A stretch of 64,000 bases of DNA from Aquipuribacter sp. SD81 (GTDB lineage Bacteria > Actinomycetota > Actinomycetes > Actinomycetales > JBBAYJ01). The stretch covers positions 1 through 64,000 of the forward strand of contig NZ_JBBAYJ010000023.1 of assembly GCF_037153975.1 (NCBI RefSeq), in the 5' to 3' direction. The notes beneath the pieces are model-generated. The model was not told the DNA's origin. It ran no database searches and saw only the letters and a program-made list of their open reading frames with translations. A program made the position numbers and the translations under genes. Of the stretch, positions 34,961-39,234 are shown in pieces (position 1 is the stretch's first letter; every line of letters starts with the position of its first letter).

Positions 34961-35236
34961 GTGCCCACGACCTGCGAGCACCTCGACCCCGCCGGGACGG
35001 CGGAGACGCCGCCCGCCCGCACCCCCGAGGGGTGCGAGGAGTGCCTCGCCGACGGCGGCCGGTGGGTGCACCTGCGCCTGTGCACGAGCTGCGGCCACGT
35101 CGGCTGCTGCGACTCCTCGCCGTCACGGCACGCCACCGCCCACCACGGCAGCACCGGCCACCCCGTCGTGCGCTCGTTCGAGCCCGGCGAGACGTGGCGC
35201 TGGTGCTACCTCGACCGCACCCTCGCCGAGGCCTGA
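34961..35236 (+). CDS. UBP-type zinc finger protein
   Basis: A 91-residue protein: CEHL near the start, CEECLADGGRWVHLRLCTSCGHVGCCDSS and RHATAHHGSTGHPVVRSFEPGETWRWCYLD form the zf-UBP fold with its Cys/His zinc ligands. In eukaryotes this domain binds the C-terminus of ubiquitin; in bacteria it is found as a stand-alone protein beside redox genes and its ligand is unknown. GTG at 34961 follows GGGAGG. Its stop overlaps the next ATG (TGATG), placing it in a tight operon with the receiver-reductase fusion and the cNMP kinase. Confidence 0.88.
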   Translation: MPTTCEHLDPAGTAETPPARTPEGCEECLADGGRWVHLRLCTSCGHVGCCDSSPSRHATAHHGSTGHPVVRSFEPGETWRWCYLDRTLAEA

Positions 35237-36906
35237 TGGCGGAGGGGCGCGACCTCCCCGTCGTCCTCACGGTCGACGACGACCCGTCCGTCTCACGCGC
35301 CATCGCGCGGGACCTGCGCCGCCGCTACGCGGGCGAGCACCGGGTCGTGCGGGCCGACGGCGGCGCCGCGGCGCTGGAGGCGCTGCGCGAGCTCAAGCTG
35401 CGCGGCAGCCGGGTCGCGGTCCTCCTCGCGGACTACCGGATGCCCGACATGGACGGCGTGGAGTTCCTCGAGCAGGCGATGGACCTGTTCCCACGGGCGC
35501 GGCGCGCGCTGCTCACCGCCTACGCCGACACCGACGCCGCGATCCGCGCCATCAACGTCGTCGACGTCGACCGCTACATGCTCAAGCCGTGGGACCCGCC
35601 GGAGGAGAAGCTGTACCCGGTGGTCGACGAGCTGCTCGACACGTGGCGGCGGGAGGGCGACCGCGAGGTCGACGGTCTGCGGCTCGTGGGGCACCGCTGG
35701 TCCCGCGCCTCGCACGAGGTGCGCGACTTCCTCGCCCGCAACGGGGCGCCGTACTCGTGGGTCGCCGTCGACGGGCCGGAGGGCGAGCGCCTGCTCGAGG
35801 CCGCCGGGCTCGACGCCGACCGGGTGCCCGTGCTCGTCACCCCCGACGGCACCGCCCACGCCCAGCCGGACCTCCCCTCCGTCGCCGCTCTCGCAGGGCT
35901 CTCGACGACGCCGGCGGAGGACTTCTACGACCTCCTCGTCGTCGGCGGCGGTCCGGCCGGGCTCGGCGCGGCGGTCTACGGGGCCTCCGAGGGGCTGCGG
36001 ACCGTCCTCGTCGACGCGAGCGCCACGGGGGGGCAGGCCGGCCAGAGCTCCCGGATCGAGAACTACCTGGGCTTCCCCGACGGCGTGTCCGGCGGCCAGC
36101 TCGCGGACCGCGCCCGGCGGCAGGCCGTCCGGTTCGGGGCCGAGGTGCTGACGGCGCGCAAGGTGACCGGCCTGGAGGTCGACGGCCCGGTCCGCACCGT
36201 CCGCTTCGCCGACGGCTCCGACGTGCGGGCGCGCGCGGTGCTGCTCGCGACGGGTGTGCAGTACCGGCGGCTGCCCGCGGACGGGTGCGAGGACCTGCTC
36301 GGACGGGGCGTGTACTACGGCAGCGCCGCCACCGAGGCCGAGGCGTGCCGCGACCAGCACGTCCTCGTGGTCGGCGGGGCGAACAGCGCCGGGCAGGCCG
36401 CGGTCTTCTTCGCGCGCACCGCGGCGAAGGTCTCCCTGCTCGTGCGCGGGCAGACGCTGACGACGTCGATGTCGAGCTACCTCGTCGAGCAGGTGCAGGG
36501 CATCGACAACGTCGAGGTGCGCACGTGCTGCGAGGTCGTGTCGGCCCACGGCACGGACCACCTCGAGGCCGTCACCCTCGCCGACCGCACCCGCGGCACG
36601 ACGGAACGGGTCGACGCGTCCCACCTCTTCGTCTTCATCGGCGCCGCGCCGCGCACGGACTGGCTCGACGGGACCGTCGCGCGCGACGAGAGGGGCTTCG
36701 TCCTCACCGGGCCGGACCTCGTCCGCGAGGGCGAGCGGCCCGCGGGATGGTCCGAGCGCCGCGATCCGTTCTACCTGGAGACGTCCGTCCCCGGCGTGTT
36801 CGCCGCGGGCGACGTCCGGGCCGAGTCCGTCAAGCGCGTCGCCTCCGCCGTGGGCGAGGGCGCGATGGCGGTGACGCTCGCCCACCGCTACCTCGACCAG
36901 AGCTGA
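35236..36906 (+). CDS. Receiver domain fused to thioredoxin-reductase-like flavoprotein
   Basis: A 556-residue three-part protein. Residues 1-125: response-regulator receiver (VVLTVDDDPSVSRAI, phosphoacceptor Asp in LLADYRMPDMDGVEFL, LLTAYADTDAAIRAIN, DRYMLKPW). Residues 150-225: a glutaredoxin/thioredoxin-like fold (RWSRASHEVRDFLARNGAPYSWV) lacking redox Cys. Residues 235-556: FAD/NAD(P)H domains (VVGGGPAGLGAAVYGASEGL, TGGQAGQSSRIENYLGFP, VLVVGGANSAGQAAVFFAR, GVFAAGDVR). The TrxB CxxC is missing: the position reads SAATEAEACRD. So it oxidises NAD(P)H but cannot act as a classic thioredoxin reductase. Likely driven by the downstream kinase. Confidence 0.9.
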   Translation: MAEGRDLPVVLTVDDDPSVSRAIARDLRRRYAGEHRVVRADGGAAALEALRELKLRGSRVAVLLADYRMPDMDGVEFLEQAMDLFPRARRALLTAYADTDAAIRAINVVDVDRYMLKPWDPPEEKLYPVVDELLDTWRREGDREVDGLRLVGHRWSRASHEVRDFLARNGAPYSWVAVDGPEGERLLEAAGLDADRVPVLVTPDGTAHAQPDLPSVAALAGLSTTPAEDFYDLLVVGGGPAGLGAAVYGASEGLRTVLVDASATGGQAGQSSRIENYLGFPDGVSGGQLADRARRQAVRFGAEVLTARKVTGLEVDGPVRTVRFADGSDVRARAVLLATGVQYRRLPADGCEDLLGRGVYYGSAATEAEACRDQHVLVVGGANSAGQAAVFFARTAAKVSLLVRGQTLTTSMSSYLVEQVQGIDNVEVRTCCEVVSAHGTDHLEAVTLADRTRGTTERVDASHLFVFIGAAPRTDWLDGTVARDERGFVLTGPDLVREGERPAGWSERRDPFYLETSVPGVFAAGDVRAESVKRVASAVGEGAMAVTLAHRYLDQS

Positions 36907-36930
36907 GACACCGGAGCTGAGGAGGCCGCC

Positions 36931-38355
36931 ATGGCGGTCACGCTGACCAACGACGAGCTGCGCGCGCTGTTCCTCTTCGAGGCGCTCGACGACGACAAGC
37001 TCGAGTGGCTGCGCACGCACGGCGAGGTCGTGTCGTACGACGCCGCGGACTCCGTCTTCGCCGAGGGCGACCCGGCCACCTGCTTCTACGTCCTGCTGTC
37101 CGGCGAGGTGTCCGTCACCCGCAACGTCCGTGGCGACCAGGTGGAGACGTCCCGCACCTCGCAGGTCGGCGTCTACGGCGGCGCGACGCAGGCGTACGTC
37201 GGGGAGCGGGGCACGACGACGTACGTCAACTCGTTCCGCGCCGTCACGCCGGCCACCCTGCTGCAGCTGCCGGCCGCGGAGTTCGGCGCCCAGGTGCGCG
37301 AGTGGTTCCCCATGGCCGTCCACCTGCTCGAGGGTCTGTACTTCGGTCTGCAGCAGAGCAACGAGCTCGTCGGGCAGCGGGAACGACTGCTCGCCCTCGG
37401 GACCGTGACGGCCGGCCTGACCCACGAGCTCAACAACCCGGCGGCCGCGGCGGTGCGGGCGACGAGCGCGCTGCGCGAGCGGGTCCGCAAGATGCACCAC
37501 AAGCTCGCGATGCTCGCCGACCAGCAGCTGGAGCCGAAGGTCCTCACGGCCCTCGCGGGGCTGCAGGACGACGCGCTCGCGTGCGCGACGACGGCCGAGG
37601 ACCTGTCGGCCCTCGCGGCGAACGACGCGGAGGACGAGCTCGTCGACTGGCTGGAGGACCGTGGCGTCGGGGCGCCGTGGGACCTCGCGCCGCCGCTCAC
37701 CGCCGCCGGGCTGACCCCCGCGTGGCTGCAGCGCCTCGCCGACGAGGTGCCCGCCCACCTCCTCGAGAGCGGTCTGCGTTGGATCGTGTACTCGCTGGAG
37801 ACCGAGCAGCTGATGAGCGAGATCGAGGACGCGACCCAGCGGATCTCGACGCTCGTCGGGGCCGCCAAGCAGTACTCCCAGATGGACCGCGCCGCCCAGC
37901 AGACCTTCGACGTCCACGAAGGCCTCAAGGCGACGCTCGTCATGATGGGGCGGAAGCTCGAGGGGCTCGAGGTCGTCAAGGACCTCGACCGGACGCTGCT
38001 CCCGATCCAGGGCTACCCCGGCGAGCTCAACCAGGTGTGGACCAACCTGCTCGACAACGCCGCCCACGCAATGACCGGGCCCGACGGGGTCCGCTCCGGG
38101 ACGCTCACGCTGCGCACCCGGCGCGACGGGGACTCCCTCCTCGTCGAGGTCGGCGACACCGGCCCGGGTGTCCCGCCGGACCTGCGCCGACGCATCTTCG
38201 AGCCCTTCTTCACGACCAAGCCCGTGGGCGAGGGGACCGGCCTCGGCCTCGACATCTCCTTCCGCATCGTCGTCAACCGGCACGGCGGCGACCTGCGGGT
38301 CGAGAGCGAGCCGGGCGACACCCGGTTCCAGGTGCGCCTGCCGCTGCGCCCCTGA
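36931..38355 (+). CDS. Cyclic-nucleotide-binding-domain histidine kinase
   Basis: A 474-residue soluble kinase. Residues 10-135 form a CRP/cNMP-binding beta-barrel (FLFEALDDDKLEWLRTHGEVV, AEGDPATCFYVLLSGEVSVTR). Residues 155-175 hold the phosphoacceptor (TVTAGLTHELNNPAAAAVRA). The C-terminal ATPase has the N box NQVWTNLLDNAAHAM, the G1 box GDTGPGVP and the F/G2 boxes IFEPFFTTKPVGEGTGLGL. No membrane segment, so it senses an internal signal. It starts 25 bp after the receiver-reductase gene, with GAGGAGG upstream, and is the obvious phosphodonor to that protein. Confidence 0.92.
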   Translation: MAVTLTNDELRALFLFEALDDDKLEWLRTHGEVVSYDAADSVFAEGDPATCFYVLLSGEVSVTRNVRGDQVETSRTSQVGVYGGATQAYVGERGTTTYVNSFRAVTPATLLQLPAAEFGAQVREWFPMAVHLLEGLYFGLQQSNELVGQRERLLALGTVTAGLTHELNNPAAAAVRATSALRERVRKMHHKLAMLADQQLEPKVLTALAGLQDDALACATTAEDLSALAANDAEDELVDWLEDRGVGAPWDLAPPLTAAGLTPAWLQRLADEVPAHLLESGLRWIVYSLETEQLMSEIEDATQRISTLVGAAKQYSQMDRAAQQTFDVHEGLKATLVMMGRKLEGLEVVKDLDRTLLPIQGYPGELNQVWTNLLDNAAHAMTGPDGVRSGTLTLRTRRDGDSLLVEVGDTGPGVPPDLRRRIFEPFFTTKPVGEGTGLGLDISFRIVVNRHGGDLRVESEPGDTRFQVRLPLRP

Positions 38356-38556
38356 CCGCGGGCCCGGCCCCAGCGACACATCCGACGGCCTCCGGCGGCG
38401 CGAAGCGCGCACCGCACCCGTTGCACGTGTCGTCGTGGCCACGGCCCGGCCTCAGCGCGGTCGCGGCGGCCGGGGGCTGCAAGCCGGGTGCAAGCCCGCT
38501 GCAGCGCGCCCGCCGCACGGTGGCTCCGACCACGCACCCACCCTCAGGAGCCCACC

Positions 38557-39234
38557 GTGAGCACGACCACGTCCACCCCGTTCGTCGACACCGACCAGAT
38601 GGTCGCCGTCCACACCATGTACCGGCGGGAGCTGCGCCTGGCCCCGGCCGCCGTCCGCCGCGTCGCGGCCGGTGACGTGGCGCGGGCCGAGGTGGTCGCC
38701 GACCACGTCGCCCTCGTCACCCGCAGCCTCCACGAGCACCACACGACCGAGGACGAGCTGCTGTGGCCGCTCCTGCTCGAGCGCGTCCCGGACGAGCTCG
38801 CCCCCGTCGTCCACCTCATGGAGTCCCAGCACGAGACCGTCGACGCGCTCCTGCAGGAGGTCGGCGAGGCGCTGCCCCGCTGGCGCGCGACGGCGGCCGC
38901 CGAGGACCGCGACCGGCTCGCGGACCTGCTCGGCCGCGCCTACGTCCACCTCGTCGAGCACCTCGACGCCGAGGAGCAGCGCCTGCTGCCCATCGCGGCG
39001 CGCACGTGCACGCCGGCGGAGTGGAAGCTGCTGGGCTCGACCGCCCGCGCCAAGGGGCCCACGGGCGCCGACGGCATGGTCGTGCTCGGCATGATCGTGC
39101 AGGACGGCGACCCCGCGGCCGTGCAGCGGATGCTCGGCGACGCGCCCCCGCCCGTCCGGTGGCTCCTTCCCCGGATCGCCCGCCGCGCGTACCGCCGCCG
39201 GGCGCTCGCGGTCCACGGCACGGCGACCCCGTGA
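38557..39234 (+). CDS. Hemerythrin-like HHE domain protein
   Basis: A 225-residue protein; iron-binding His/Glu candidates occur in VAVHTMYRRELR, SLHEHHTTEDELLWPLL, HLMESQHETVDALL and HLVEHLDAEEQRLLPI, which is the four-helix hemerythrin layout. Such proteins bind a di-iron site and sense or carry O2, NO or iron. GTG at 38557 follows AGGAG. It lies about 200 bp after the cNMP-kinase gene on the same strand, consistent with a redox/oxygen theme for the locus. The spacer 38356-38556 holds no gene; it contains two TGCAAGC direct repeats at about 38475-38495. Confidence 0.88.
   Translation: MSTTTSTPFVDTDQMVAVHTMYRRELRLAPAAVRRVAAGDVARAEVVADHVALVTRSLHEHHTTEDELLWPLLLERVPDELAPVVHLMESQHETVDALLQEVGEALPRWRATAAAEDRDRLADLLGRAYVHLVEHLDAEEQRLLPIAARTCTPAEWKLLGSTARAKGPTGADGMVVLGMIVQDGDPAAVQRMLGDAPPPVRWLLPRIARRAYRRRALAVHGTATP

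Follow-up and report, generated by a model that had tools for sequence, protein, structure and literature searches.

Response regulators with enzymatic outputs are of an already known kind; it is rare, and has been little studied, for a regulator to control a redox enzyme instead of DNA. Fusions of a receiver (REC) domain to a thioredoxin reductase (TrxR)-like enzyme also belong to the known kind: they are noted in a census of archaeal two-component systems, where they are called a "Mycobacterium-like combination" (PMC5847659). We describe a locus that shares this fusion and adds to it. It lies in a 64,000-nucleotide stretch of DNA from Aquipuribacter sp. SD81 (assembly GCF_037153975.1, contig NZ_JBBAYJ010000023.1, positions 1 to 64,000; hereafter the window) and encodes, in order, a stand-alone ubiquitin-binding-type (UBP) zinc finger, a fusion of a receiver, a mycoredoxin-like domain and a TrxR-like flavoprotein, and a soluble histidine kinase. 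The census passages on this fusion do not mention the absence of the redox-active CxxC, a mycoredoxin-like domain in the middle, a partner kinase, the alternative fusion to a cyclic nucleotide monophosphate (cNMP)-type domain, and the UBP partner. In the open-licence literature, we found no description of a UBP-TrxR-kinase module, nor of the loss of the CxxC, the dead mycoredoxin domain, the pairing with a kinase, the exchange of sensors between cis and trans, or the pairing with a UBP finger. The three genes form a genuine and widely conserved module, which we read, with a probability of roughly 60%, as a two-component system with a flavoenzyme output.

The genes of the module are tightly packed on the forward strand. 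The finger gene (34961..35236, + strand, 91 aa; Pfam zf-UBP 4.4e-12) has a GTG start preceded by a GGGAGG ribosome-binding site, and the ATG of the fusion gene (35236..36906, + strand, 556 aa) overlaps its stop codon (TGATG). A gap of 24 bp, with GAGGAGG upstream of the kinase, leads to the kinase gene (36931..38355, + strand, 474 aa; cNMP_binding 7.3e-11, HATPase_c 1.9e-24). These open reading frames (ORFs) and that of a hemerythrin-like protein downstream are all real, as re-read from the DNA, and Pfam confirms their domains, which bears out the initial annotation on the overlapping or closely spaced genes and the four domains. The host genome (G000) comprises 3.86 Mb in 69 contigs of high-GC actinobacterial DNA. 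NCBIfam assigned no named family to the proteins of the locus; the fusion scored 215 bits with the TrxR equivalog, short of its cut-off of 343. The locus is far beyond chance: throughout the class, the fusion has orthologues that are 54-70% identical to it.

Of 198 genomes of the class, 110 encode close relatives of the fusion (E<1e-60). When named genomes were scanned, the fusion turned up in Actinomycetota, Cyanobacteriota, Bacteroidota, Pseudomonadota, Chloroflexota, Acidobacteriota, Gemmatimonadota, and Verrucomicrobiota; the module is common in the first of these and spread over at least eight phyla. The initial annotation had tied its reading to conservation of the gene order, and the order is conserved across phyla: the kinase adjoins the fusion in all eight, in either order, downstream in Actinomycetota and upstream in Bacteroidota. 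The 151 loci that we compared were chosen from match lists, some via the kinase or the finger, so that the following fractions are not unbiased frequencies: 113 have the architecture REC-middle-TrxR (88 of them with an adjoining kinase), 31 are cNMP-middle-TrxR, and 7 are middle-TrxR with no sensor. The cNMP-like domain sits either on the kinase or directly on the enzyme; in the latter, related branch, it would appear to replace the phosphorelay.

A link between kinase and fusion comes from the receiver. This domain (residues 10-122; 35263..35601, + strand; Response_reg 2.3e-13) has every residue of the phosphorylation site: the acidic pocket D14/D15, the phospho-acceptor D66 (35431-35433, + strand), and K117. 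All 88 fusions that have a kinase beside them retain an intact site, versus 5 of the 25 without one, the other 20 being degenerate; shared ancestry makes 88 of 88 an overstatement of the independent evidence, and the fair measure is the number of changes in receiver state, about five by parsimony on a tree of the enzyme domain (an orphan clade, together with L194 from Bacteroidota and L224 from Acidobacteriota). None of the 113 REC-fusion loci combines a kinase with a broken receiver, and, of the five intact kinase-less fusions, L176 lies 2.6 kb from a kinase gene. Kinase and receiver chemistry have been lost together. Degenerate receivers are confined to loci without the kinase, so that the two proteins look cognate, and we take this as good indirect evidence for a predicted phosphotransfer from kinase to receiver. 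The kinase-linked and kinase-less versions amount to a natural experiment on how a receiver controls an enzyme. In the kinase-less Bacteroidota fusion L194:6989-8650, the phospho-acceptor is replaced by Glu (LSEQKMP), possibly a fixed "on" state.

The output module (residues 231-553; 35926..36894, + strand; Pyr_redox_2 1.1e-31) resembles TrxB in its FAD and NADPH domains, in its fold (Z 36 to PDB TrxRs), and in sequence (E ~1e-43 to PDB TrxRs); it differs in lacking the CxxC, in carrying an extra receiver and a dead mycoredoxin domain, and in not reaching the equivalog cut-off. The position of the CxxC reads G362-S-A-A365 (36319-36330, + strand), GSAA replacing CATC; the ordinary TrxR of the same genome retains both CATC and the HRRDELR motif. 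The initial annotation had noticed this loss in the one protein, and it extends to 152 of 152 relatives. Both dinucleotide-binding motifs are kept, those for FAD and for NAD(P)H: G237xG239P240, GG[AG]NSAGQ, and G525-D526, the last an FAD-site pair that is invariant in both alignments. Across the 152 relatives, N383, S384, Q387, S413, Y415, and L416 are invariant, G380, A385, and G386 are found in 151, and R404 in 149. Only the first Arg of HRRDELR, the NADPH motif, is kept in the fusion, so that either NADH or NADPH may be the electron donor. An AlphaFold2 (AF2) model of the fusion, built with 46 sequences (predicted local distance difference test score (pLDDT) 89, predicted template modeling score (pTM) 0.73), superposes best on TrxR entries at a low root-mean-square deviation (1.7-2.2 Å). 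Among these are 5mh4, a flavin-reducing conformation (Z 36.4, 1.8 Å), and 1f6m, a TrxR entry that contains thioredoxin and an NADP analogue (2.2 Å); the deviation from 5mjk, a flavin-oxidizing TrxR, is 7.2 Å. As modeled, a flavin-reducing-like state would suit an enzyme with no need to swing a disulfide to the flavin.

Between receiver and enzyme lies a domain (residues 145-222; 35668..35901, + strand) that the initial annotation had called a Cys-less thioredoxin fold. The description held up and can be narrowed: on the whole-protein AF2 model and a profile match, on which its identity rests, the domain is classed as a redox-dead mycoredoxin/glutaredoxin-like domain. In the model, residues 148-219 follow the order strand-helix-strand-helix-strand-strand-helix of the thioredoxin/glutaredoxin fold. 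A profile of 40 middle domains, 12 of which individually match Pfam Glutaredoxin, has as its top PDB match 2LQO (E=1.3e-7), the M. tuberculosis protein Rv3198.1, which we take to be mycoredoxin-1. The CxxC of 2LQO aligns to Ser: both active-site cysteines are replaced in the fusion (S156xxS159), position 156 is Ser in 110 of 152 relatives and Cys in 4, and neither a CxxC nor a CxxS active site of the mycoredoxin/glutaredoxin type is present in the middle domain of the window fusion. The likeness to mycoredoxin-1 includes a Pro in the cis-Pro position, the residue that contacts substrates in this fold; P198 is kept in 148 of 152 relatives. In the fusion L113:4397-6175, an insertion falls within the mycoredoxin-like domain, and a similar split match is seen in genomes G402, G378, and G422.

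The kinase has the conserved features of its class. Its predicted phospho-acceptor, H165 (AGLTHELNNP; 37423..37425, + strand), is invariant in 39 aligned sequences and conserved at more than 90% in 90 members, over which the H-box (H165) and the N (NQVWTNLLDNA), G1 (DTGPG), F (FEPFF), and G2 (GTGLGLD) boxes are also conserved; its catalytic ATP-binding fold is matched with Z 23. The AF2 model (pLDDT 88.7) places a long helix at residues 126-197 and a second dimerization helix at 275-320. Between these dimerization (DHp) helices, it predicts a helical insertion (residues ~198-274; 37522..37752, + strand) with helices at 202-221, 227-243, 249-258, and 263-272, all within a block of pLDDT 91-98. 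The insertion recurs across the kinase family with motifs conserved in the 90 members, including E234, W240, and A253. The sensor domain (37030..37290, + strand; cNMP_binding 7.3e-11) has a CRP/cNMP fold, and to this extent the soluble kinase with a cNMP-type sensor is as first described. The canonical cyclic-nucleotide motif is a Glu/Arg phosphate-binding cassette; the Glu position of the kinase is a near-invariant Gly84 with no Arg after it, so that binding of a cyclic nucleotide is not expected. The enzyme-fused domain keeps the Glu and also lacks the Arg. From these residues, cNMP sensing appears doubtful for both proteins. The kinases of L144 and L145 have a different N-terminal half, with no cNMP domain visible. 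Tandem copies of the cNMP-type kinase are found at L173:8683-11532, L176:11273-14113, and L150:9201-12001; in L150 the pair lies near a UBP finger, and no TrxR-like fusion was found in the 12 kb covered at that locus.

The UBP finger is the third member of the module. Its fold is known almost only as a ubiquitin reader, and its steady pairing with the enzyme suggests a candidate prokaryotic role for that fold. The presence of such a finger in a bacterium, on which the initial annotation had remarked, is not odd in itself, because UBP fingers occur in 68 of 296 actinobacterial genomes. The association is real: in genomes drawn independently for the finger and for the enzyme, the two genes lie within 3 kb of each other in 10 of the 16 carrying both, versus an expectation of 0.03 from gene density, a comparison in which the relatedness of the genomes leaves the tail probability uncalibrated. 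In six phyla, the finger gene lies next to a member of the enzyme family, on either side of it, and the kinase-linked, cNMP-fused, and sensor-less versions are all represented. Its close homologue in the PDB is 2IDA (E=1e-27), a "hypothetical protein". In an alignment of 65 members, C25, C28, C41, C44, C49, C50, H57, H61, H67, and W79 are invariant; eight of these (C25, C28, C41, C44, C49, H57, H61, and H67) align to the zinc ligands of HDAC6. The finger thus shares with HDAC6 and USP fingers the zinc-ligand pattern and a W/Y near the C-terminus, and differs from them in two respects. It has an extra invariant Cys, the vicinal C49-C50 standing where HDAC6 has a single Cys, and it has Ser52 (Ser in 53 of 65 sequences) at the position of the Arg of the HDAC6 CGRY motif, which holds the di-Gly C-terminus of ubiquitin. 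The finger is assigned to a distinct bacterial branch that lacks the ubiquitin-contacting Arg. "cNMP" and "ubiquitin-binding" are here names of folds, not of demonstrated functions. A second UBP finger of the genome, G000:C4:39265-39462 (L147:6218-6448), forms the C-terminal end of a Na+/H+ exchanger that also has a TrkA_N domain, and similar exchanger-UBP fusions occur in L151, L152, and L153. A finger used as an exchanger tail points to a general role in binding a ligand or partner rather than ubiquitin.

We can outline how such a system might work. An intracellular signal would act on the soluble kinase, through its CRP-like sensor fold and the dimerization hairpin with its helical insert, and lead to autophosphorylation on H165. 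The phosphate would pass from H165 to D66 of the receiver, where we infer that it would alter the position or activity of the fused NAD(P)H- and FAD-binding module of the TrxR family and, in this way, the rate of the enzyme. Lacking a CxxC, this module may hand electrons from FAD directly to an acceptor other than thioredoxin. The Cys-less domain between receiver and enzyme, with its substrate-side Pro kept, is probably a docking or ligand-binding part. The finger presumably works with the enzyme family, most likely as a binding partner or targeting subunit. In the sister branch, the cNMP-like domain fused onto the enzyme would make a kinase unnecessary. A fuller version is tentative: the phosphorylation-gated NAD(P)H flavoenzyme would reduce a new acceptor picked via the bacterial UBP finger, and its sensor could be swapped between a position in trans, on a kinase, and a direct fusion in cis. 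If true, this would be a prokaryotic system for redox control and targeting that uses a reader fold of the ubiquitin type for redox control with no ubiquitin involved.

Several points weigh against reading the locus as a two-component system whose output is a flavoenzyme. With its CxxC lost, the flavoprotein could be a pseudo-enzyme. In the branch with degenerate receivers, the enzyme persists without phosphorylation, and the receivers may be mere scaffold. A pTM of 0.73 leaves the modeled placement of the receiver on the enzyme unfixed. Finally, 80 of the 113 REC-fusion loci have no UBP gene nearby, and the finger is not always operonic.

In another explanation, the TrxR-like part is a sensor or scaffold: it would report the redox state of NAD(P)H or flavin and in this way tune the flow of phosphate to or from the receiver, or it would give a redox-dependent surface for binding the finger. 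The absent redox cysteines, the dead mycoredoxin domain, and the decay of orphan receivers while the enzyme part persists speak for this explanation. We consider it unlikely, since the FAD and NAD(P)H motifs are kept as strictly as in an active enzyme, and since ferredoxin-NADP reductases (FNRs) of the TrxR family have no CxxC and yet are active. A further explanation is less likely again: the flavoprotein would be an NADPH reductase of an ordinary type that resembles a TrxR-type FNR and serves quinone or a small electron carrier (ferredoxin, flavodoxin), and the receiver would only set its abundance or location. The Bacillus FNR, a ferredoxin/flavodoxin-NADP reductase, indeed shares with the fusion a TrxR-like fold without a CxxC (Z 28 to the fusion model). 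Yet, among PDB matches, the flavoprotein is far closer in sequence to TrxR (2e-43) than to FNR (5e-18), its chain stops at the TrxR end with no evident C-terminal extension, and no dedicated ferredoxin, flavodoxin, or substrate gene recurs among the annotated clusters of neighboring ORFs. That the finger recognizes Pup, or some other ubiquitin-like tag, by its C-terminus and brings tagged proteins to the enzyme is highly improbable: the eukaryotic UBP fold binds a C-terminal di-glycine, the host is an actinobacterium, and sister cNMP-type operons carry a Clp-type unfoldase, yet Ser stands in place of the Arg that holds the ubiquitin tail, and the finger-enzyme pair also occurs in Bacteroidota, Cyanobacteriota, Acidobacteriota, and Pseudomonadota, which are mostly without Pup, a phyletic spread from which we judged Pup unlikely as the ligand.

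Downstream of the module, after a gap of 201 bp, lies the gene for the hemerythrin-like protein (38557..39234, + strand; Pfam Hemerythrin 2.2e-11), which the initial annotation had counted as part of the operon. A search of 21 other genomes with PF01814 gave matches elsewhere and none beside the fusion, even in both genomes of the same genus, and the other related loci contained no HHE match. We therefore rejected it as an operon member and regard it as a neighbor outside the module.

The largest clusters of neighboring ORFs lie in the frame opposite to that of the core genes, and we read them as antisense artefacts of high-GC DNA. Most other clusters are confined to kinase-linked loci and look lineage-specific; only the pair of thioredoxin and Clp-type unfoldase stood out. 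In four actinobacterial loci (L120:317-5703, L122, L127, and L135), a Clp-type unfoldase, an active thioredoxin (WCGPC), and a UBP finger stand in a row before the cNMP-fused enzyme. This gene content, a minority pattern, hints at a possible link to proteotoxic or thiol stress. A Clp-type gene also lies nearby in the Burkholderiaceae relatives L207 and L210.

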